DNA of 64,000 nt, from NCBI RefSeq assembly GCF_014489475.1, contig NZ_CP060820.1:2744001-2808000 (forward strand), given 5' to 3'. A program made the position numbers and the translations under genes. Shown here in pieces: positions 10,920-20,467 of the stretch; within the stretch, counting starts at the first letter, position 1, and the number at the start of each line of letters is the position of its first letter. The notes beneath the pieces were generated by a model. That model saw only the letters and a list, made by a program, of their open reading frames with translations, ran no database searches and was not told the DNA's origin. This stretch comes from Lysobacter terrestris (GTDB lineage: Bacteria > Pseudomonadota > Gammaproteobacteria > Xanthomonadales > Xanthomonadaceae).

Positions 10920-12293
10920 ATGAAGCATCCGTTCCGTACCGCGGCGCTGTCCGCCGCCGTGATCGCCACGCTGGGTCTGTCTTCCGCCGCCGTTGCCGGC
11001 GGTCGCCCGGATCTCGTGCTGGCGGGCCTGAAGGCCGGCAAGGCTCACCAAGCCGGCGAGCTGCTGGTGAAGTTCCGCGACGGTTCGACCGCGGCGCAGC
11101 AGACGGCCGTCCGCCAGGGACTGGGCGCCGAGAAGCTCGACGTGGTTCGCCAAGGCAACGGCAAGAAGGGCGAGCTCGCCCTGATGCGCCTGCCGGCCGG
11201 CAAGGACATCGCCGCCACCGTGAGCGCGCTGGCTGCCAACCCGAACGTCGAATACGCCGAACCGAACTGGACCTACCAGCACCACGCGACGTCCAACGAC
11301 AGCTACTACTCCAACGGTTCGCTGTGGGGCATGTACGGCGATGCATCGTCGCCAGCCAACCAGTACGGCTCGCAGGCCGCTGAAGCCTGGGCCGCCGGCC
11401 ACACCAGCTGCAATGGCGTCGTCGTCGGCGTGATCGACGAAGGCATCTTCTACAACCACGAAGACCTCGCCGCCAACATCTGGACCAACCCGTACGATCC
11501 GGCCGATGGTATCGACAACGACGGCAACGGCTACGTCGACGACGTGCGTGGCTGGGACTTCGAGGGCAACACCAACAACATCAACTCGGGCGGTGCCAGC
11601 GACGACCACGGCACGCATGTGTCGGGCACGATCGCCGGCATCGGCGGCAACGGCAAGGGCGTGGCCGGCGTGTGCTGGAGCGGCGTCAAGCTGATCAGCG
11701 GCAAGTTCCTCGGTCGCCGCGGCGGTTCCACCGCCAACGCGATCAAGGCGATCGACTACTTCAACGACCTGAAGGCGCGTCACGGCCTGAACATCGTCGC
11801 GACCAACAACTCCTGGGGCGGCGGTGGCTTCTCGCAGGCGCTGCAGGACGCGATCGGCCGCGCCGACAGCGCGGGCATCCTGTTCATCGCCGCGGCCGGC
11901 AACGACGCCTACAACAACGACACCACTGCCAGCTATCCGTCGAACTACCCGAACGCGAACGTCATCGCGGTCGCATCGACCACCAGCACCGGCGGCCTGT
12001 CGAGCTTCTCGCAGTGGGGTCCGACCACGGTCGACATCGGTGCGCCGGGTTCGGGCATCTACTCGACCGTTCCGGTCAGCTCCAAGGGCAAGCTGGTGTC
12101 GGGCTACGCCAGCTACAACGGCACCTCGATGGCCACCCCGCACGTGACCGGCGCCGCGGCGCTGTACGCCTCGTCGCACCCGGGCGCGACCGCGGCCGAC
12201 ATCAAGGCCGCGATCCTGGGCTCGGCCGTGCCGACCGCGTCGCTCAGCGGCAAGGTCCTGACCGGCGGCCGCCTCAACGTCAGCGGCTTCTGA
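10920..12293 (+). CDS. secreted subtilisin-like serine protease (peptidase S8)
   Basis: This 457-residue protein has a signal peptide (about residues 1-26), an inhibitor-I9-type propeptide (about 45-118, ELLVKFRDGS ... VEYAEPNW) and an S8 catalytic domain. The triad is visible: Asp173 in VVVGVIDEGI, His230 in DDHGTHVSG, and Ser403 in YNGTSMATPHVTG; Asn328 in AAAGND supplies the oxyanion hole. There is no C-terminal P-domain or PPC domain, so it ends right after the catalytic fold. It is probably an extracellular degradative enzyme, as is common in predatory or proteolytic Lysobacter-type bacteria. Codon use is strongly GC-biased. It is monocistronic with its own terminator. Confidence 0.95.
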   Translation: MKHPFRTAALSAAVIATLGLSSAAVAGGRPDLVLAGLKAGKAHQAGELLVKFRDGSTAAQQTAVRQGLGAEKLDVVRQGNGKKGELALMRLPAGKDIAATVSALAANPNVEYAEPNWTYQHHATSNDSYYSNGSLWGMYGDASSPANQYGSQAAEAWAAGHTSCNGVVVGVIDEGIFYNHEDLAANIWTNPYDPADGIDNDGNGYVDDVRGWDFEGNTNNINSGGASDDHGTHVSGTIAGIGGNGKGVAGVCWSGVKLISGKFLGRRGGSTANAIKAIDYFNDLKARHGLNIVATNNSWGGGGFSQALQDAIGRADSAGILFIAAAGNDAYNNDTTASYPSNYPNANVIAVASTTSTGGLSSFSQWGPTTVDIGAPGSGIYSTVPVSSKGKLVSGYASYNGTSMATPHVTGAAALYASSHPGATAADIKAAILGSAVPTASLSGKVLTGGRLNVSGF

Positions 12294-12433: not shown

Positions 12434-13003
12434 ATGAGCATCAAGTCCGACCGCTGGATCCGCCGCATGGCCGAACAACACGGCATGATCGAGCCGTTCG
12501 AACCCGGCCAGGTCAAGACCGACGCCGCCGGCGAACGCATCGTCAGCTTCGGCACCTCCAGCTACGGCTACGACGTGCGCTGCTCGCGCGAGTTCAAGAT
12601 CTTCACCAACATCAATTCGACGATCGTCGATCCCAAGCACTTCGACAGCGGCAGCTTCGTCGACGTCGAAGGCGACTACTGCGTGATTCCGCCCAATTCG
12701 TTCGCCCTGGCGCGCACCGTCGAGTACTTCCGCATCCCGCGCGACACGCTGGTGGTGTGCCTGGGCAAGAGCACGTACGCGCGCTGCGGGATCATCGTCA
12801 ACGTCACGCCGCTGGAGCCGGAATGGGAAGGCCACGTGACGCTCGAGTTCAGCAACACCACGCCGCTGCCGGCGCGCATCTACGCGAACGAAGGCGTCGC
12901 GCAGATGCTGTTCTTCCAGTCCGACGAAGTCTGCGAAACCTCGTACCGCGACCGCGGCGGCAAGTACCAGGGGCAGGTGGGCGTCACGCTGCCGCGGACC
13001 TGA
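12434..13003 (+). CDS. dcd: dCTP deaminase
   Basis: This 189-residue cytoplasmic enzyme deaminates dCTP to dUTP, feeding dTMP synthesis. Length and sequence match the family. Visible features are the N-terminal [19 protein letters not shown], the [18 protein letters not shown] block, the nucleotide-binding [12 protein letters not shown] segment, and the late active-site stretch [20 protein letters not shown] followed by EGVAQMLFF. It follows the S8 protease terminator and has its own likely promoter. It converges with pcp, with only 16 bases between the stop codons. Confidence 0.96.
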
Positions 13004-13019
13004 CCGCAACTGGCGGTCG

Positions 13020-13676
13020 TCAGTGTTCTGCGCCGGCCGCGATCCTGCGGTCGGCACCGGTTTCCAGGGCCGTGCGCAGTGCGATGCGCAGGCCGTCGAC
13101 GACGGTCTCGACCGGCAGGCTCGGCGCACCCGGGTGATGCGCGGCCTGCTCGGGCGAATACGGGATATGCACGAAGCCGCCGCGGATGCGGCGGTTGCGC
13201 AGGGCGTGCATCAATCCGTAGAAGACGTGGTTGCACACGTAGGTGCCCGCCGTCTGCGAGACCTCGGCCGGGATGCCGGCCGCCCGCAGCGCATCGAGCA
13301 TGGCCTTGATCGGCAGGCCGGTGAAGTAGGCCGCGGGGCCATCCACGACTATTGCCGCATCGATCGGCTGCGCGCCGGCGTTGTCGGGAATCCGCGCGTC
13401 GTCGACGTTGATGGCGACGCGCTCCAGCGCGATCGCCGCGCGTCCGCCGGCCTGGCCGACGCACAGCACCAGTGATGGCTTGACCTCGCGGATGGCGCTG
13501 CGCAGTTCCTTCAGCGACGCGCCGAATGCCACGGGCAACTGCCGCGCGACGATGCGATGCCCGCCGATGCGGCGCCCATGCAATTGCTGCGCGGCCTGCC
13601 AGCTTGGATTGACCGTTTCGCCGCCAAATGGCGCGAATCCGGTCAACAGCACCGTGCGCGGCTTCGTCGTGCTCAC
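13020..13676 (-). CDS. pcp: pyroglutamyl-peptidase I
   Basis: This 218-residue cytoplasmic cysteine peptidase of family C15 cleaves N-terminal pyroglutamate from peptides. The catalytic triad is visible: Glu85 in ALERVAIN, Cys148 in [13 protein letters not shown], and His170 in [11 protein letters not shown]. The N-terminal [18 protein letters not shown] is the family start signature. The start is a GTG at 13676 that overlaps the DUF979 stop as GTGA, so it is translationally coupled. It is the last gene of a nine-gene minus-strand run that also encodes 5-oxoprolinase, so its product (5-oxoproline) would be used by its operon neighbours. Confidence 0.96.
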
Positions 13677-14638
13677 CGGAATACCAGCCAGTACATCAGC
13701 ATCAGGTTGGTCAGCATCAGCACGATCGCGGTGGGCAACTGCGCGCGGATGACCGCATTGGGGTCGTCGAGTTCGAGCAGCGCGGCCGGGACCAGGTTGA
13801 AGTTGGCCGCCATCGGCGTCATCAGCGTGCCGCAGTAGCCGGTGAGCATGCCGAGTGCGCCGAGCGCGGCCGGATCGGCGCCGTGGCGCTGGATCAGCAG
13901 CGGCAGGCCGATGCCCGCCATCATCACCGGGAACGCGGCGAACGCGTTGCCCATGATGATGGTGAACAACACCATGCCCAGGCCGAACGCGAGCAGGCAG
14001 GCGATGCGGTTGTCGGCGGGGATCACCGCGGTCACCAGCGACGAAACCGCCTCGCCGACGCCGCTTGCGGCGAAGACGCCGCCCAGCGTGGCCAGCACCA
14101 GCGGCAGCAGCGCGGCCCAGCCGATGGTTTCCAGCAGGCGGCTGCCTTCGATGGGCGCCTGCAGCGGGCGCGTGCGGGTGATCGCGAGTGCCGCGAACGC
14201 CGCAAGGATGCTTGCGACCGCCAGCGCCGGTAGGGCGATGTTGCCTTCGGCGAACAGCGCGACGTTGCCGATGCGCAGCTTCGCGCCGAGCAGCACGATC
14301 AGCACCGTCGCCAGCGGAATCACCAGTGCGGGCCCGAAGAGGCGGTGGCCCAGCCGCTGCGCGGATGCGCGGCGTTGCTCTTCGGGCGCTTCCGCGATGT
14401 GTTCACGGCGCATGCGCGTGGCGAGGACCGCCATCGCGATGACTGCGATGCCCGCCATCTGCGCGGGCAGCTTGTCGCCGGCCTTGCTGGCGGTGAGGAC
14501 GAATTCGCCGGTCGCGAACAGCAGGGCGACCAGGCCCCAGAATCCGGCATGCGCGTAACGTTTCGCCCGCAGGTTGTGCCAGCTGGTGTAGGCCAGGAAG
14601 ACCGCGAGCAGGACGTAGAAGTGCTCAATCCGCAGCAT
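13673..14638 (-). CDS. DUF979 family membrane protein, putative permease subunit
   Basis: This 321-residue polytopic membrane protein starts at ATG 14638 ([14 protein letters not shown]). About nine or ten hydrophobic segments can be picked out, with conserved-looking stretches [20 protein letters not shown] and [30 protein letters not shown]979 proteins regularly occur next to DUF969 proteins and pyroglutamyl peptidase; a transport role is suspected but I know of no proven substrate. It overlaps the DUF969 gene by 14 bases and the pcp start by 4 bases. From context I infer a two-component carrier for 5-oxoproline or pyroglutamyl peptides together with DUF969. Confidence 0.85.
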
Positions 14639-15317
14639 GCGGGGCCTCCTGCACGTTGCGCGGCAGGCGGCGCTGGAACACCGCGATGCGCACGGCATGG
14701 ATGACGAAGGCGGCCAGCGCGGTCGGCGCCGCCCACAGCGCGATCTGGATCGGCGTCAGCGAGATGCCGTGCTGGGCGAAGAAACCCTGGATCAGCAGCA
14801 CCGCACCGAAGGCGATGAACACATCCTCGCCGAAGAAACGGCCGACGTTGTCGGTCGCCGCAGCCAGCGCGTGCACGCGTTGGGTCTGGGCGCGGTCGAG
14901 TTCGCCGTGGGTCTTCTCCGCCGCGGATTCGGCCATCGGTGCCAGCAGCGGGCGCACGGTCTGGGCGTGGCCGGCGATATCGATCAGGCCGACCATGCTC
15001 AGGCCCTGGCGGACGGCGAGGTAGATGATCAACAGGCGCACCATGGTGACGCCGCGCAGGCGTGCGATCCATGCCAGTGCGTGCTCGCGCAGGCCCGCGC
15101 GCTCCAGCAGGCCGATCGTCGGCAGGGTGAAGCAGAACAGCAGCAGGGCGCGGTTCGACACGAAGCTCTCGCCGAGCAGGGCCAGCAGGTCCGGCAGAGA
15201 CATGCCCGCGGCCATCGCGCTGACGATGCCGGCGCTCACCACCACTAGCACCGGGTTCAGGCGCAGGGCGAAGCCGACCACCACCACCGCGATGCCGAGC
15301 AGGGGCCAGTAGTTCAT
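14625..15317 (-). CDS. DUF969 family membrane protein, putative permease subunit
   Basis: This 230-residue membrane protein starts at ATG 15317 (MNYWPLLGIAVVVVGFALRLN); longer in-frame starts fall inside pxpA. It has about five or six hydrophobic helices and a central charged loop with AAATDNVGRFFGEDVFIAFGAVLLIQ. DUF969 is the usual partner of DUF979, and the 14-base gene overlap supports a joint complex. Its ATG overlaps the pxpA stop as ATGA. With pxpABC and pcp in the same operon, the simplest reading is a transporter for pyroglutamate or its peptides; this is inference from context, not from a known activity. Confidence 0.85.
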   Translation of the reverse strand: MNYWPLLGIAVVVVGFALRLNPVLVVVSAGIVSAMAAGMSLPDLLALLGESFVSNRALLLFCFTLPTIGLLERAGLREHALAWIARLRGVTMVRLLIIYLAVRQGLSMVGLIDIAGHAQTVRPLLAPMAESAAEKTHGELDRAQTQRVHALAAATDNVGRFFGEDVFIAFGAVLLIQGFFAQHGISLTPIQIALWAAPTALAAFVIHAVRIAVFQRRLPRNVQEAPHAAD

Positions 15318-16063
15318 GCGATCGCTCCCACCGGCAGGATGTCGACGCCATCGACGTGCAGCGCGTCGCGGATCGCGCGCGCGAACTGCGCGGCATCGGC
15401 GCGGTCGCCGTGCAGGCACAGGGTGTCGGCACGCAGCGCGAGCCGCTCGCCGGTGCGCGCGGTCACGGCCTGCTCGCGGACGAACCCGCGCACCTGGGCG
15501 ATGGCTTCGTCGAGGCCGTGGATCACCGCGTCGTCACGGCTGCGCGGGGTCAGCGTGCCTTGCGCTTCGTAGCGGCGTTCGGCGAACACTTCGTGCGCGA
15601 CGCGCAGGCCCGCGGCTTCGCCGGCGGCGGTGAGCTGCGAGCCCGACAGCCCGAACAGGATCAGTCGTGGATCGAAACGCGCCACCGCGGCGGCGATGGC
15701 ATCGGCCACGACGCGGTCGCGCGCGGCGACGTTGTACAACGCGCCGTGCGGCTTCACGTGCGCGAGGCGCATGCCTTCGGACGCGGCGATGGCGGCGAGC
15801 GTGGCGATCTGCGCCGCGACCATCCGCTCGATCTCCGCCGGTGGCAGCGGCAGCTCCACGCGGCCGAAGTTGGCGCGGTCGGCGTAGCCCGGGTGCGCGC
15901 CGGCGGCGACGCCGTGTTCGCGGCACAGACGCAGGGTCGCGCGCATCGTGGCTTCGTCGCCGGCATGCGCGCCGCAGGCGATGCTGGCCGAGGTGACGAG
16001 GGGGATGATCGCGGCATCGTCGCCGCAGCCTTCTCCCAGGTCGCAGTTGAAGTCGATGCGCAC
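15314..16063 (-). CDS. pxpA: 5-oxoprolinase subunit A (LamB/YcsF family)
   Basis: This 249-residue protein has the LamB/YcsF signature at its N terminus: MRIDFNCDLGEGCGDDAAII, ASIACGAHAGDEATM and VAAGAHPGYADRANFGR, followed by LAHVKPHGALYN. With PxpB and PxpC it forms the ATP-dependent prokaryotic 5-oxoprolinase that opens 5-oxoproline to L-glutamate, removing a damaging metabolite or salvaging it. Unlike the common compact pxpBCA order, pxpA here is separated from pxpC by a 54-codon membrane-protein gene. It overlaps the DUF969 start by four bases. Confidence 0.95.
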   Translation of the reverse strand: MRIDFNCDLGEGCGDDAAIIPLVTSASIACGAHAGDEATMRATLRLCREHGVAAGAHPGYADRANFGRVELPLPPAEIERMVAAQIATLAAIAASEGMRLAHVKPHGALYNVAARDRVVADAIAAAVARFDPRLILFGLSGSQLTAAGEAAGLRVAHEVFAERRYEAQGTLTPRSRDDAVIHGLDEAIAQVRGFVREQAVTARTGERLALRADTLCLHGDRADAAQFARAIRDALHVDGVDILPVGAIA

Positions 16064-16075
16064 GGCGTTCCGGCG

Positions 16076-16240
16076 CTACTTGCGGTTGAACAGCAGGCCG
16101 AGGCCGACCACGATCAGGATCGCCGGCCACCAGGTCGAGATCAGGTTGCCCAGGCCCGGCACGTTGAAGCCGAGGTTCCTGAGCAGGAACAGCGTGCCGA
16201 CGATGATCAGCACGAGCGCGGCGATGATGTTGCCCTTCAT
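16076..16240 (-). CDS. small two-helix membrane protein (LiaF/DUF5668-like)
   Basis: This short gene encodes 54 residues from ATG 16240; a longer in-frame start at 16339 lies inside pxpC and adds a charged, non-hydrophobic stretch. Two hydrophobic helices (about residues 3-20 and 34-51) flank GFNVPGLGNLISTWWPAIL. The pattern NIIAALVLIIVGTLFLLRNLG ... WWPAILIVVGLGLLF resembles the LiaF-type/DUF5668 transmembrane domain, including its WWP motif. Gaps to pxpC (20 bases) and pxpA (12 bases) place it firmly in the operon. Its role there is unknown. Confidence 0.75.
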   Translation of the reverse strand: MKGNIIAALVLIIVGTLFLLRNLGFNVPGLGNLISTWWPAILIVVGLGLLFNRK

Positions 16241-16260
16241 TGATGGGTTCCCCTGAATAG

Positions 16261-17232
16261 TCAGTCGTTGAGTTTCTGGTCGATGAGCTTGCGTTCGATC
16301 ATCAGCGAGATTCTGGCGATGCGCGCGCGCGCGGCGCAAGCGAGGTGCGTCGCGGTTTGCAGGTCGCAGGCCTGGAAGCGCAGGGAATCGCCGGGGCGCA
16401 GCTGCGCCAGGCGCGGCAGGTCCGCGGCGACCACGTGGCCCAGGCGCGGGTAGCCGCCGACCGTCTGCGCGTCGGCGAGCAGCACGATCGGCTGGCCGTC
16501 GGGTGGCAACTGCACGGTGCCGGGCGCGACCGGCGCCGAGATCTCCTCGGGGCGTTCATTGGCGAGCGTTGCGCCCTCCAGTCTCAGGCCCTGGCGGTTG
16601 CTGCGGTTGCCCGCGCGCCATTGCCGGCCATCCAGCAGCGCGCCGCCCGCCTGTGGCGACGGCACGTAACGGATCGGCAGGCCGCGTTCGTCGAAATCGG
16701 GATCGATCCACCAGCGCGGCGAATGCGCCTGTGTGCACGCGAGCGTGCGCGGCGTGCGCAGGGACAATGCATCGCCACTGCGTAGCGCGCGTCCCTCGTG
16801 GCCGCCGAAGCCGCCGCGCAGGTCGGTGCTGCGGCTGCCCAGTACCGGCGGCACGTCGAGCCCGCCGGCGAACGCAAGCCATGCGCGGGCCCCGTTGCGC
16901 AGCGTACCCACGCGCAGGACGCCGGCGGGCAGGGTGGCCGGGCGGCCGGATTCGATCACGCAGCGTTCGCCCGTCGCGGATTCGAAGCGCGCCTGCACGC
17001 CGGCGCCGCAGATCGCGAGGCGCAGTGGCCGGTCGAATTGCAGCGTCGGCCCCTGCAGGGTGAGTTCGAGCACGGCTTCGTCGGCGTCGTTGCCGACCAG
17101 GCGGTTGGCCAGGGTCGCAGCGGTCGCATCGAGCGCGCCGCAATGCGCCACGCCCAGATGGCGCCAACCGGTCCGGCCCCGATCCTGCACCGTCGTGAGC
17201 GGCCCGGGCGAGAGCACCTGCAGCCGGGTCAC
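16261..17232 (-). CDS. pxpC: 5-oxoprolinase subunit C (biotin-dependent carboxyltransferase-like)
   Basis: This 323-residue protein has the family start signature LQVLSPGPLTTVQDRGRTGW and GALDATAATLANRLVGN, and a later LADAQTVGGYPRLGHV. It is homologous to allophanate hydrolase subunit 2 (KipA-like). With PxpB and PxpA it catalyses ATP-driven opening of 5-oxoproline. The start is GTG 17232, overlapping the pxpB stop as GTGA. Its C terminus (to residue 323) carries an extra charged tail ending ERKLIDQKLND. Confidence 0.93.
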   Translation of the reverse strand: MTRLQVLSPGPLTTVQDRGRTGWRHLGVAHCGALDATAATLANRLVGNDADEAVLELTLQGPTLQFDRPLRLAICGAGVQARFESATGERCVIESGRPATLPAGVLRVGTLRNGARAWLAFAGGLDVPPVLGSRSTDLRGGFGGHEGRALRSGDALSLRTPRTLACTQAHSPRWWIDPDFDERGLPIRYVPSPQAGGALLDGRQWRAGNRSNRQGLRLEGATLANERPEEISAPVAPGTVQLPPDGQPIVLLADAQTVGGYPRLGHVVAADLPRLAQLRPGDSLRFQACDLQTATHLACAARARIARISLMIERKLIDQKLND

Positions 17233-17912
17233 GGCGCCGCGTCCACGGCGAGGAAACGCACGCGGTCCCCGGGCGCGAGCAACGCGGGCGGTTCGCGCGC
17301 CGGATCGAACAACGCCAGCGGCGTGCGTCCGAGCAGGCGCCAGCCGCCGGGGCTTTCGCGCGGATACAGCCCGGTCTGCGCGCCGCCGATGCCGACGCTA
17401 CCCGCGGGAACGGACGTCCGCGGTGTCGCCAGGCGCGGCAGGGCGAGGGCGGGATCCAGGCCGAGCAGGTACGGAAAGCCCGGCGCGAAGCCGATCATCG
17501 CGACGACGTACTCGCCCGCGGCGTGGCGTTGCACCAGCTCCTGCGCGGTGATGCCGAGTTCCGCGGCGGCGCTGTCGAGATCCGGACCAGCCTCGCCGCC
17601 GTAGACCACCGGGATTTCCACCGTGCGCGGCGCCGATGTGGCCGCAGGTGCAGCGGACGACGACGCGGCGAGCTGCGCGCGCAGCCATGCGGTGACGGCT
17701 TCCATCCCGATCTGCGCCGGATCGAAGAACACGCCGACGCTGGCGTACGCCGGCACGAGATCGAGCAGCCATGCCGGCCGCCGTGCGCGGATGCGTCCGC
17801 ACAGCGCATGCACGCGGGCATTGGTCGCCGGATCGATGCGTTCGCCGATGCGCAGCAGCAGCGCATCGTCGGCGATGGCTTCGATTAGCGGATCGTCGTG
17901 GCCGGCAGTCAC
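17229..17912 (-). CDS. pxpB: 5-oxoprolinase subunit B (allophanate hydrolase subunit 1-like)
   Basis: This 227-residue protein starts at GTG 17912, overlapping the HIT-gene stop as GTGA; the open frame extends much further upstream but only as antisense to other genes. It carries the KipI/PxpB signature EIPVVYGGEAGPDLDSAA, MIGFAPGFPYLLGLDP, LATPRTSVPAGSVGIGG and QTGLYPRESPGGWRLLGRTP. It is the partner of PxpC (as KipI with KipA). An Ala/Ser-rich insertion (about residues 86-98) interrupts the middle, probably a flexible loop. Confidence 0.93.
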   Translation of the reverse strand: MTAGHDDPLIEAIADDALLLRIGERIDPATNARVHALCGRIRARRPAWLLDLVPAYASVGVFFDPAQIGMEAVTAWLRAQLAASSSAAPAATSAPRTVEIPVVYGGEAGPDLDSAAAELGITAQELVQRHAAGEYVVAMIGFAPGFPYLLGLDPALALPRLATPRTSVPAGSVGIGGAQTGLYPRESPGGWRLLGRTPLALFDPAREPPALLAPGDRVRFLAVDAAP

Positions 17913-18334
17913 GCCAGCGCCGCGCGCAGGCGTTCGATACGGCGCACGAGTTCCTCGGGCGAATACGGCTGGGCGGTGGCCATGCCCCACACCGGTCGCG
18001 GCCAGGCGATGTCTTCGCGGAAGCGTGCGATCACGTGCACGTGCAGCTGCGGCACCATGTTGCCCAGCGCGGCGACGTTGAGTTTGTCCGGACGGAACAC
18101 GGCCTGCAGCACCCGCGAGGCGCGGCTGATTTCCCGGGTGAGTTCGACCTGCTGCGCCTCGTTGAGGTCGATCCACTCCACCGCGTGTTCCACCCGCGGC
18201 ACCAGGATCAGCCACGGGTGGTTGGCGTCGTCCATGAGCTGCAGGTCGCACAGGGTGAAGTGCGCGATCGGATGCGTGTCTTCGGCGAGTTGCGGGTGCA
18301 GGTGCCAGCCGACGGAGGGGGGCGTGCGGTTCAT
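17909..18334 (-). CDS. HIT family protein
   Basis: This 141-residue cytoplasmic protein starts at ATG 18334, overlapping the upstream hydrolase stop as ATGA. The histidine-triad segment is PQLHVHVIARF (His98, His100): the second and third histidines are kept, but the first position of the triad is Gln. HIT proteins are nucleotidyl hydrolases or transferases acting on substrates such as AMP-lysine or Ap4A. The substrate cannot be read from the sequence. It has no obvious link to 5-oxoproline metabolism, although PxpABC uses ATP. Confidence 0.88.
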   Translation of the reverse strand: MNRTPPSVGWHLHPQLAEDTHPIAHFTLCDLQLMDDANHPWLILVPRVEHAVEWIDLNEAQQVELTREISRASRVLQAVFRPDKLNVAALGNMVPQLHVHVIARFREDIAWPRPVWGMATAQPYSPEELVRRIERLRAALA

Positions 18335-19014
18335 CGCAGGTTCTCGGCGAGGAAATCCAGTGTCCGTTGCCAGGCGAGCGCGGCGCTCTCCGCGTGGTAA
18401 TGGCTGTTGTCGACGTCGCGGTTGAAGGCGTGGTCGGCGCTTTCGTAGACGAAGATGCGCGCCGTGGGCTGCTTGGCGCGATGCAGCTCGATGTCGCCCG
18501 CCGGAATGCTCTTGTCGCGCGCACCGAAATGGAACAGCAGCGGCGCGCGCGCCGGCTCGTCGAGGAACGGCACGCTGCGCGCGCCGTAGTAGCTGACCGA
18601 GGGCAGGCCGAGGCGCGTGTTGGCGAGGAAGGCGACGCTGCCGCCCCAGCAGAAGCCGACCACACCGGTGCGCAGGCCTTCCTCTTCCAGCACCTCGGCC
18701 GCGGCGGCCACCACGTCCACGGCGCGGTCGAAGCCGACCTGGTTGCGCAGCGCGACGCCGCGCTGGGTTTCGGCTTCGCCGTAGGCGAGCTCCACGCCGG
18801 ATTCGATCGGATCGAACAGGCTGGGCGCGAGCGCAACGAAGCCCGCGGCGGCAAAACGCTCGGTGACCGCGCGGATGTGTGGATTGACCCCGAAGATCTC
18901 CTGCAGCACGACCACGGCGCCGCGCGAAGGTCCGCTGGGCTCGGCGCGCCAGGCCCGGACCGGTCCGTGGGGCCGGCTTGCGTATGGCACGTTCAGGTCG
19001 ATCCAGCGGCTCAT
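18331..19014 (-). CDS. dienelactone hydrolase family protein
   Basis: This 227-residue alpha/beta hydrolase is the first gene of the minus-strand run. The DLH triad is visible: Cys122 in VVGFCWGGSVAF, Asp167 in GARDKSIP and His195 in SADHAFNRD. An early VVVLQEIFGVNPHIRAV also matches carboxymethylenebutenolidase. It probably hydrolyses a lactone or ester; no chlorocatechol pathway genes are nearby, so the classical substrate is unlikely. Its ATG is preceded by a C-rich stretch with no clear Shine-Dalgarno site. Confidence 0.88.
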   Translation of the reverse strand: MSRWIDLNVPYASRPHGPVRAWRAEPSGPSRGAVVVLQEIFGVNPHIRAVTERFAAAGFVALAPSLFDPIESGVELAYGEAETQRGVALRNQVGFDRAVDVVAAAAEVLEEEGLRTGVVGFCWGGSVAFLANTRLGLPSVSYYGARSVPFLDEPARAPLLFHFGARDKSIPAGDIELHRAKQPTARIFVYESADHAFNRDVDNSHYHAESAALAWQRTLDFLAENLR

Positions 19015-19100
19015 GGGCGGGGGAGAGGGGGCGGGGAGGCCTACTTAAGCGCTTTGCGGCCTTGTCCTGCAAGCCGCCGGTCGGGGGGCGTCCGGGCAGG

Positions 19101-19110
19101 TATAATTGCC
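19101..19110 (+). promoter_or_regulatory. -10 region of the rimO promoter
   Basis: A consensus TATAAT followed by TGCC lies 29 bases before the chosen rimO ATG. No good -35 box is seen 16-18 bases upstream. It also argues against the longer reading frame, whose TTG start would overlap this box. Confidence 0.6.
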
Positions 19111-19135
19111 TGTTTTTTCTGGAAATTTGCGCTCC

Positions 19136-20467
19136 ATGTCCCTCGCCAATCCCAAAGTCGGTTTCGTCAGCCTCGGATGCCCCAAGGCGCTGGTGGATTC
19201 CGAACGCATCCTCACCCAGCTCAAGGTCGAAGGTTACGACCTGGTGCCGAGCTATGACGACGCCGACGTGGTCGTGGTCAACACCTGCGGCTTCATCGAT
19301 TCGGCGGTGACCGAGTCGCTGGATGCGATCGGCGAGGCGCTGGCGGAGAACGGCAAGGTCATCGTCACCGGCTGCCTGGGCAAGCGCGAGGAAGTGATCC
19401 GCGAGGCGCATCCGGGCGTGCTGTCGATCAGCGGTCCGCAGGACTACCAGAGCGTGATGGAAGCCGTGCACAAGGCGCTGCCGCCGAAGCACGATCCTTT
19501 CATCAACCTGGTGCCCGACATGGGCATCAAGCTCACGCCGAAGCACTACGCGTACCTGAAGATTTCCGAAGGCTGCAACCACCGTTGCAGCTTCTGCATC
19601 ATCCCGTCGATGCGTGGCGACCTGGTGTCGCGCCCGGTCGACCAGGTGCTGCGCGAAGCCGAGAAGCTCGCGATGGGCGGCGTCAAGGAACTGCTGGTGA
19701 TCTCGCAGGACACCAGCGCGTACGGCGTCGATGTGAAGTACGCCGAGCGCGAATGGCGCGGCAAGCAGTACCAGACGCGCATGAAGGCCTTGTGCGAGGG
19801 CTTGTCCGAACTGGGGCTGTGGACGCGCCTGCACTACGTGTATCCGTATCCGCACGTCGACGAGATCATCCCGCTGATGGCCGACGGCAAGCTGCTGCCG
19901 TACCTGGACATCCCGTTCCAGCACGCCAGCCCGCGCGTGCTGAAGCTGATGAAGCGACCGGGCGCCGTGGACAAGGTGCTCGAGCGCGTGCACCGGTGGC
20001 GCACGATTGCCCCCGACCTGACGATCCGCTCGACCTTCATCGTCGGCTTCCCCGGCGAGACCGAAGCCGAGTTCGAGGAGCTGCTGGATTTCCTTGACGA
20101 GGCCCAGCTCGACCGCGTCGGCGCGTTCGCCTATTCGCCGGTGGAGGGCGCGGCGGCGAACGCGCTGCCCGACCCCGTGCCGGAGGAAGTGAAGCAGGAG
20201 CGCCTCGCGCGCTTCATGGAGCGGCAGGCGGAAATCTCCGCGGCGCGGCTCGAAGCGAAGGTCGGCAGCGTGCAGCGCTGCCTGGTCGATGCGATCGACG
20301 GCGAACTGGCGATCGCCCGCTCCATGGCCGACGCGCCGGAGATCGACGGCGTGGTGCAGATCCAGAACGGCTTCGAGGCCGGGCTGAAGCCGGGCGAGTT
20401 CGTCGACGTCGAGATCATGGGCAGCGACGAGCACGACCTGTACGGCGAGGTCGCGTTCGACGACTGA
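19136..20467 (+). CDS. rimO: ribosomal protein uS12 methylthiotransferase
   Basis: This 443-residue radical-SAM enzyme adds a methylthio group to Asp88 of ribosomal protein S12. The N-terminal MTTase domain starts [19 protein letters not shown] and carries three conserved Cys (Cys15, one in NTCGFIDSA, one in TGCLGKREE) for the auxiliary cluster. The radical-SAM motif CNHRCSFC has Cys147, Cys151 and Cys154. The C-terminal TRAM domain runs from about residue 375. [11 protein letters not shown] distinguishes RimO from MiaB. I chose ATG 19136 (MSLANPKV) because an upstream TTG at 19106 lies within the promoter. Confidence 0.96.

Follow-up and report, generated by a model that had tools for sequence, protein, structure and literature searches.

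What do the membrane proteins DUF969 and DUF979 carry? The question is raised by a locus of Lysobacter terrestris that lies in a 64,000-nucleotide stretch of contig NZ_CP060820.1 (positions 2,744,001 to 2,808,000; hereafter the window), part of a single-contig genome of 3.15 Mb. Here, nine consecutive minus-strand genes (13020-19014) bring the two proteins together with the 5-oxoprolinase PxpABC and with pyroglutamyl peptidase (Pcp). Judging by gene content, conservation and structural models, it is likely that the run is a salvage operon for pyroglutamate (5-oxoproline, 5-OP) and that DUF969 and DUF979 form a split, two-chain 5-OP transporter. The operon is a real member of an already known association. 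What the comparison of genomes adds is that pcp is tied to the DUF969-DUF979 pair rather than to the pxp genes.

The nine-gene run and its relatives

From DLH to pcp, the genes are:

18331-19014, minus strand: DLH-fold hydrolase, 227 amino acids (PF01738, E 4e-37)
17909-18334, minus strand: HIT-domain protein, 141 amino acids (PF01230, E 7e-15)
17229-17912, minus strand: pxpB, 5-oxoprolinase subunit, 227 amino acids, GTG start (PF02682; TIGR00370 above cut-off)
16261-17232, minus strand: pxpC, 5-oxoprolinase subunit, 323 amino acids, GTG start (PF02626; TIGR00724 above cut-off)
16076-16240, minus strand: membrane protein of 54 amino acids with a LiaI/LiaF-like transmembrane region (PF18917, E 2e-9)
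15314-16063, minus strand: pxpA, 5-oxoprolinase subunit, 249 amino acids, GTG start (PF03746, E 5e-89)
14625-15317, minus strand: DUF969, 230 amino acids (PF06149, E 4e-82)
13673-14638, minus strand: DUF979, 321 amino acids (PF06166, E 7e-100)
13020-13676, minus strand: pcp, pyroglutamyl peptidase I (C15), 218 amino acids, GTG start (PF01470, E 8e-80; TIGR00504 above cut-off)

The original prediction had described a minus-strand run joined by overlaps of 4 to 14 bases or gaps of at most 20, and had named the gene families; both descriptions hold. Remeasured in the order of the list, the first three junctions overlap by 4 bases each, the next two leave gaps of 20 and 12 bases, and the last three overlap by 4, 14 and 4 bases; the longest overlap, at 14625-14638, joins DUF969 as the first gene to DUF979 as the second. 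All nine products reach the Pfam cut-off, the families being DLH, HIT, CT_C_D, CT_A_B, LiaI-LiaF-like_TM1, LamB_YcsF, DUF969, DUF979 and Peptidase_C15. The spacing suggests that the nine genes share one transcript. A consensus promoter scan of 12900-19300 found no sigma-70-like site, a result that carries little weight.

NCBIfam models for PxpA (at the subfamily level), PxpB and Pcp score above cut-off. For PxpC, the domain model TIGR00724 alone does so, the score against the PxpC equivalog NF045499 being below its cut-off, and no NCBIfam model matched the window's DUF969 or DUF979. By Pfam and NCBIfam, pxpA, pxpB and pxpC are all present and the PxpABC gene set is complete. PxpA aligns with YbgL (1xw8) over residues 1-241, and Pcp aligns with 3lac over 7-207, keeping the blocks ERVAIN, TYVCNH (TFVCNH in 3lac) and GFVHIP (GFIHIP in 3lac), in which we presume the Glu-Cys-His catalytic triad to lie. 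The genome encodes one DUF969, one pxpA and one pcp, and a search of it for Hydantoinase_B and DUF2891 matched neither. The 54-residue membrane protein is too small to be a carrier on its own.

Together, these genes suggest a model for a pyroglutamate salvage unit. DUF969 and DUF979 would make up one secondary transporter of the ion-transporter (IT) superfamily, clan CL0182, each chain contributing one of the two repeats that the usual members carry on a single chain. The transporter would take up 5-OP and might take up short pyroglutamyl peptides too. In the cytoplasm, Pcp would take the pyroglutamyl cap off peptides, and PxpABC would use ATP to open 5-OP, whether released by Pcp or imported, to glutamate. 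Presumed parts of this model are the assembly of the two chains into a complex in this species, coupling to a cation, the inward direction and any peptide substrate.

At least 586 relatives of DUF979 occur in named genomes, and the loci of the best 80, some of them short contigs, were compared with the window. Among these 80, pcp lies in the fetched stretch of 69, at least one pxp gene in 63, and both in 56. The eight larger genes stand in the window's order in 20 of the 80, a few of these with one inserted gene, and a genome from a second family of the same taxonomic order (G154, locus L028) shows the same arrangement minus the 54-residue gene. Because of this recurrence, the gene order is not a matter of chance, and it is old in this lineage. 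DLH and HIT precede pxpB in 20 of the 80 relatives and in G154; four of the 20 (L034, L047, L072, L076) come from metagenome bins whose names go no further than the phylum, and the rest are Lysobacterales. The 54-residue gene precedes pxpA in five of the 80, all Lysobacter or Pseudoxanthomonas, a count from which the short query has likely missed some. DLH, HIT and the 54-residue protein are probably lineage-specific additions. The pair itself is compact, since the genes overlap in 60 of 104 DUF969-DUF979 pairs measured, and no fusion of the two was found among these 104.

Some relatives vary the theme. Three Lysobacterales loci (L093:4143-6074, L034:4693-6483 and L064:3976-5835) place a DUF885 protein, with an N-terminus that by eye looks lipoprotein-like, between pxpC and pxpA; members of DUF885 may be peptidases. 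Four Pseudoalteromonas loci (L062, L071, L074, L099) have pxpB and pxpC, with no pxpA match beside the pair. In Pseudomonas sp. JUb42 (L102, 5767-7002), an OprD-family porin is encoded directly upstream of DUF969. OccK3, of the OprD-type porin family, carries pyroglutamate (PMC3260308).

The run is flanked by genes on the other strand:

19106-20467, plus strand: divergent neighbour, rimO by eye
12434-13003, plus strand: convergent neighbour, dcd by eye

A gene for a protease that by eye is subtilisin-like (10920-12293, plus strand) is next but one to pcp, and a stem-loop and T run with TATAAT lies at 19093-19112 on the plus strand, between DLH and its divergent neighbour.

The company that the pair keeps

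Co-occurrence was counted in two phylum samples, in which DUF969 is present in 15 of 219 Pseudomonadota and 13 of 299 Bacillota genomes. In Pseudomonadota, a strong pcp match (PF01470, E < 1e-60) accompanies DUF969 in 10/15 genomes and is found in only 2/204 of the others (p 3e-12), and pxpA is found in 10/15 versus 52/204 (p 0.0016); these and all other p values given here are optimistic, since the genomes share ancestry. The strong matches come from 12 of the 27 Pseudomonadota genomes with any PF01470 match, and the 15 weaker ones, whose best E values lie between about 1e-23 and 5e-4, were left out of this count and of the clustering test below; when all 27 are counted, the proportions become 10/15 and 17/204. 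In Bacillota, pcp is present in 12/13 DUF969 genomes versus 36/286 others (p 9e-10), and in 11 of those 12 it lies less than 3 kb from DUF969. The expectation that the pair would co-occur with pcp and with pxpABC is borne out for both in Pseudomonadota; the tie to pcp is the tighter one, and for pxpA the expectation does not carry over to Bacillota.

The arrangement of the genes points in the same direction. We called pcp and pxpA clustered if they lay within 8 kb on one contig, as read by hand from coordinates in both samples. Among the genomes that have both genes, they are clustered in 13/14 with DUF969 versus 0/22 without (p 6e-9). The 13 comprise 9/9 Pseudomonadota and 4/5 Bacillota, the exception being G246, where the two genes are on different contigs; the spacing is about 7 kb in the Bacillota G356 and G390 and about 3.4 kb in G467. 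The 22 unclustered genomes are 21 Bacillota and G139, and in 18 of them pcp and pxpA are on different contigs of draft assemblies, so that a break could hide neighbours. Both genes share a contig in only four of the 22 (G139, G293, G391, G498), and restriction to one-contig genomes leaves 13/13 with DUF969 versus 0/4 without. Finally, pcp was found in none of 76 pxpA stretches, about 12 kb each, from genomes without DUF969 (all 56 such Pseudomonadota pxpA places and 20 from Bacillota, of 83 genomes). It is thus the pair, and not the pxp genes, that pcp follows, a pattern that favours a role involving either pyroglutamyl peptides or 5-OP made by Pcp. Neither this coupling nor the exchange of one 5-oxoprolinase for another described below is stated in the literature found, which is weak evidence of novelty, as most journals lay outside the search.

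The identity of the 5-oxoprolinase is less constant. Five Pseudomonadota genomes with DUF969 lack pxpA (G011, G114, G119, G147, G214). Four of them, G114, G119, G147 and G214, have neither pxpA nor strong pcp and instead encode a Hydantoinase_B fusion protein of 1200-1255 amino acids, of the OPLAH type, whose function is assigned by family (related hydantoinases exist) and which is by family unrelated to PxpABC. The gene adjoins the pair in G119, G147 and G214 and is on another contig in G114; in G214, Pfam finds Hydant_A_N, Hydantoinase_A and Hydantoinase_B on one chain. A 5-oxoprolinase of either kind is therefore present in 14/15 Pseudomonadota genomes with DUF969, and stands beside the pair in 12 of them (pxpA in nine, OPLAH in three). 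The only exception is G011, where neither family was found and pcp adjoins the pair. In G126, pxpA adjoins the pair, but the 16-kb stretch that was examined showed neither pxpB nor pxpC. A similar picture emerges from the best 80 relatives, 17 of which have no pxp genes at the locus. The whole genomes of 14 of these were searched, the short contigs L038, L042 and L055 being left out: pxpA is elsewhere in three (L084, L102, L108), and a Hydantoinase_B of OPLAH length is encoded in 11, namely ten Massilia, Duganella and Undibacterium genomes and Sphingobium L101. The L102 genome also encodes a Hydantoinase_B of 574 amino acids. The pair is hence not found mostly with unrelated pathways, which would have spoken against the original prediction. 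It also does not always feed PxpABC: this idea is ruled out by the four OPLAH genomes without pxpA, by G011 and by the Bacillota without pxpA (7/13).

In several genomes a further family accompanies the pair. DUF2891 (PF11199) adjoins it in 6/15 Pseudomonadota genomes with DUF969 and is present in 7/15, versus 6/204 of the others. Loci that show it are L019, L023, L025, L026, L027, L029, L084, L103, L104, L135 and L142, and in G075 it is close to pxpA with DUF969 absent. DUF2891 appears to be a further, so far undescribed, component of the 5-OP genes. The structure of a relative has been solved (8ieu); a literature search on the structures 8ieu and 8iev returned only matches that, judged by title, are unrelated.

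Sixty-nine plasmid records, 39 of them from Klebsiella, encode a DUF979 relative, and nine of the 69 neighbourhoods were inspected. Plasmids of Melissococcus, L. plantarum, E. faecalis and V. campbellii carry a DUF969-DUF979-pcp unit with no annotated pxp gene nearby, in gene tables that are incomplete. In two Enterococcus plasmids (L138:1232-5250 and L143:1105-5139), a stand-alone glutamate 5-kinase of 258-260 amino acids (TIGR01027 above cut-off) and a large M14 peptidase stand ahead of this unit; the product of glutamate 5-kinase cyclises to 5-OP. In the Bacillota genomes G297 and G440, both without pxpA, the pair's run includes a gene of the GGACT family (L128:5064-5459 and L133:7744-8196), a family that has 5-OP-forming members.

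Where the pair is absent, many pxpA loci hold a transporter gene of another family. An NRAMP gene is present at 20/76 pxpA loci without DUF969 versus 1/69 stretches with DUF969 and pxpA (p 8e-6). By phylum, the proportions are 6/56 versus 0/58 in Pseudomonadota (p 0.012) and 14/20 versus 1/9 in Bacillota (p 0.005); with L126 and L129 added, in which pxpA lies just outside the stretch on the same contig, they become 3/71 overall (p 2e-4) and 3/11 in Bacillota (p 0.031). Pfam confirmed Nramp for the cluster representative, L144. A screen of the same 76 loci for hydrophobic open reading frames on the same strand and at most 2.5 kb from pxp genes gave transporter candidates in 40. These form an NRAMP group (19 loci), a group with a TRAP DctM representative (6), two with ABC branched-chain permease representatives (3 and 2), an AI-2E group (3), one with no Pfam match (2), and one more group and several singletons, not all of which were scanned. 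The position of the pair is thus one that an importer often fills in other genomes.

Structural models and the nature of the cargo

AlphaFold2 models of the window's proteins, built on alignments of 52 and 61 sequences, are confident, with a predicted local distance difference test score of 88.1 for DUF969 and 91.6 for DUF979. The DUF979 model aligns with VcINDY (4f35, residues 41-240) at VIA Z 11.2 over 175 residues with a root-mean-square deviation (rmsd) of 5.4, and with SiaQM (8thj, 86-385) at VIA Z 10.9 over 239 residues with an rmsd of 7.9. Of its 14 best structural matches, 13 are, judged by title, transporters of the DASS, TRAP, Pho90, NaS1 or ArsB kinds (Z 8.1-11.2, below the 13 advised for helical models). 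On SiaQM (8thj_A), the two models cover complementary halves, DUF979 residues 86-385 and DUF969 residues 405-609 (VIA Z 6.6 for the latter), and 8thi_B and 8y4w_A are divided between them in the same way. These complementary TRAP halves would suit a single transporter divided over two chains. Judging by the pattern of helices, each chain may have a hairpin and a broken helix, with about 80 extra N-terminal residues ahead of the repeat in DUF979. The stretches conserved there, GNAFAAFP and [13 protein letters not shown] in DUF979 and the RP..APM and TDNVG regions in DUF969, may have a functional role.

Several results weigh against a two-chain 5-OP transporter. None of the Z values, for either model, reaches what is advised for helical models, and the best match of DUF969, YdaH (4r0c, 248-489; VIA Z 9.1, 204 residues, rmsd 5.0), is weak, as an unrelated helical bundle reaches Z 8.4. 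On DASS chains, both models fall on the first half (on 8uve_B, for example, DUF979 on 33-303 and DUF969 on 14-303), and DUF979 also fits the second half of Pho90, as expected if the target's two repeats resemble each other. Because the DASS and Pho90 alignments do not separate the halves, their assignment to DUF969 and DUF979 is not firm. Foldseek alone gave no match in the PDB at E < 0.001 for either model, hhalign detected no sequence similarity between the two families, and a search for solved relatives by sequence returned none for DUF979 and one chance-level match for DUF969. On the genomic side, the 80 relatives are biased to close relatives, which is why the phylum samples were used for counts, and in these the shared ancestry of genomes flatters the statistics. 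In Bacillota, the association with pxpA is not significant (6/13 versus 83/286, p 0.16), and all seven DUF969 genomes without pxpA have pcp. No transporter candidate emerged from the hydrophobic screen in 36 of the 76 loci without the pair. In the Bacillota loci L125, L126 and L129, no more than about 5 kb separates the pair from NRAMP, and the contig also holds pxpA; because NRAMP stands there too, the pair is not simply a substitute for PxpT, the NRAMP-type transporter, in these loci. The idea that the pair is just another PxpT is likewise weakened by the absence of pcp from all 76 pair-less pxpA loci, 20 of them with NRAMP.

Genetic support comes from Campylobacter jejuni, where, according to PMC12795558 (2026), a cj0552-4 mutant lacking DUF969 and DUF979 cannot use 5-OP as nitrogen source. 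However, the mutant also loses DUF2891, and the authors call the growth test preliminary. This additional loss, and the three loci that hold both the pair and NRAMP, slightly lower the confidence in a transporter reading that is still likely. The original prediction had named pyroglutamate or pyroglutamyl peptides as cargo: free 5-OP has some genetic support in this mutant, and for peptides the support comes only from the gene neighbourhood.

The cargo might be mainly pyroglutamyl peptides that are imported whole and cut inside by Pcp, with PxpABC or OPLAH handling only the resulting 5-OP, and AbgT with its intracellular hydrolase offers a precedent. We consider this possible, if doubtful. It would account for the frequency of pcp in DUF969 genomes of both phyla, for the clustering of pcp and pxpA only where the pair is present, for the lack of pcp at pair-less pxpA loci, including those with NRAMP, and for the plasmid units without annotated pxp genes, and YdaH, an AbgT-family protein, as the best match of DUF969 agrees with it. 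Yet Pcp would be coupled to the pair equally well if 5-OP were the cargo and Pcp its internal source, most unclustered genomes are drafts with the two genes on different contigs, and the four OPLAH genomes keep the pair with neither strong pcp nor pxpA. The loss of growth on free 5-OP in C. jejuni (PMC12795558) also argues against peptides as the main cargo. A broader version assumes a two-chain IT carrier whose main partner is Pcp and not the 5-oxoprolinase, and which brings in pyroglutamyl peptides, for which 5-OP may leave the cell in return; lineages would differ in which of two unrelated 5-oxoprolinases was added to it, and in those such as this one the carrier would have come to import free 5-OP. 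This version we hold to be rather unlikely.

The direction of transport might also differ between lineages. Because the enzymes beside the pair in Bacillota without PxpABC only make 5-OP, the pair could there export 5-OP or swap it for pyroglutamyl peptides. The seven pxpA-less Bacillota with pcp, the GGACT-family genes in two such genomes and the glutamate 5-kinase ahead of the Enterococcus plasmid units would all suit an exporter. However, the 5-oxoprolinase search of these seven genomes covered pxpA only, and export makes little sense in the window genome, where PxpABC is present. On balance, we hold export to be rather unlikely. It is very improbable that DUF969 and DUF979 form a transporter or membrane complex with no tie to the pathway that is in the operon by chance. 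DLH, HIT and the 54-residue protein indeed lack a clear link to 5-OP, but against this reading speak the co-occurrence of the pair with pcp, with GGACT and with 5-oxoprolinases of two unrelated kinds, and the published loss of 5-OP use in C. jejuni (PMC12795558). The reading that remains preferred is a salvage operon whose split transporter carries 5-OP.

If this is true, two families named only as DUFs would acquire a function. Their transporter, with one repeat on each chain, could represent a living intermediate in the way a large superfamily evolved. 5-OP arises spontaneously from glutamine and glutamate, and its importers would therefore be useful additions to the metabolic models of many bacteria. 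What is new and open to testing is the finding that pcp goes with the transporter and not with the 5-oxoprolinase, and it poses a cheap and sharp question, namely whether the pair carries pyroglutamate, pyroglutamyl peptides or both.

Relation to known systems

The idea of 5-OP transport by DUF969 and DUF979 is already published and was proposed in 2017: PMC11467057 (2024) cites Niehaus 2017 for 5-OP operons with the two families, places DUF979 in the IT clan, and models a C. difficile DUF969-DUF979 complex with an interface predicted template modelling score of about 0.9. A metabolic model has likewise assigned pyroglutamate transport to these families (PMC6904757). Among the closest counterparts is cj0552-4 of C. 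jejuni, in which the same two families are adjacent and the same transport role is proposed. However, the third gene there is DUF2891, whereas the window has pcp, pxpABC, DLH, HIT and the 54-residue protein, with no DUF2891 in the genome. PxpT, which C. glutamicum needs for growth on 5-OP, and YcsG resemble the window's arrangement in that a transporter gene stands beside pxpABC (PMC13274462). They differ in being single chains with the fold of the APC superfamily, and pcp is found at 0/20 NRAMP-bearing pxpA loci without DUF969.

The TRAP transporter SiaQM and the DASS transporter VcINDY, both of the IT superfamily, resemble the modelled structures in that DUF979 aligns to both and is complemented by DUF969 on SiaQM. 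In contrast to them, the window's putative carrier consists of two chains, and the nine-gene run includes no gene for a binding protein. The AbgT family (YdaH, MtrF), whose substrates are p-aminobenzoyl-glutamate or drugs, is linked to the window by YdaH, the best structural match of DUF969. AbgT proteins, however, are made of one chain, and the carrier proposed here of two.

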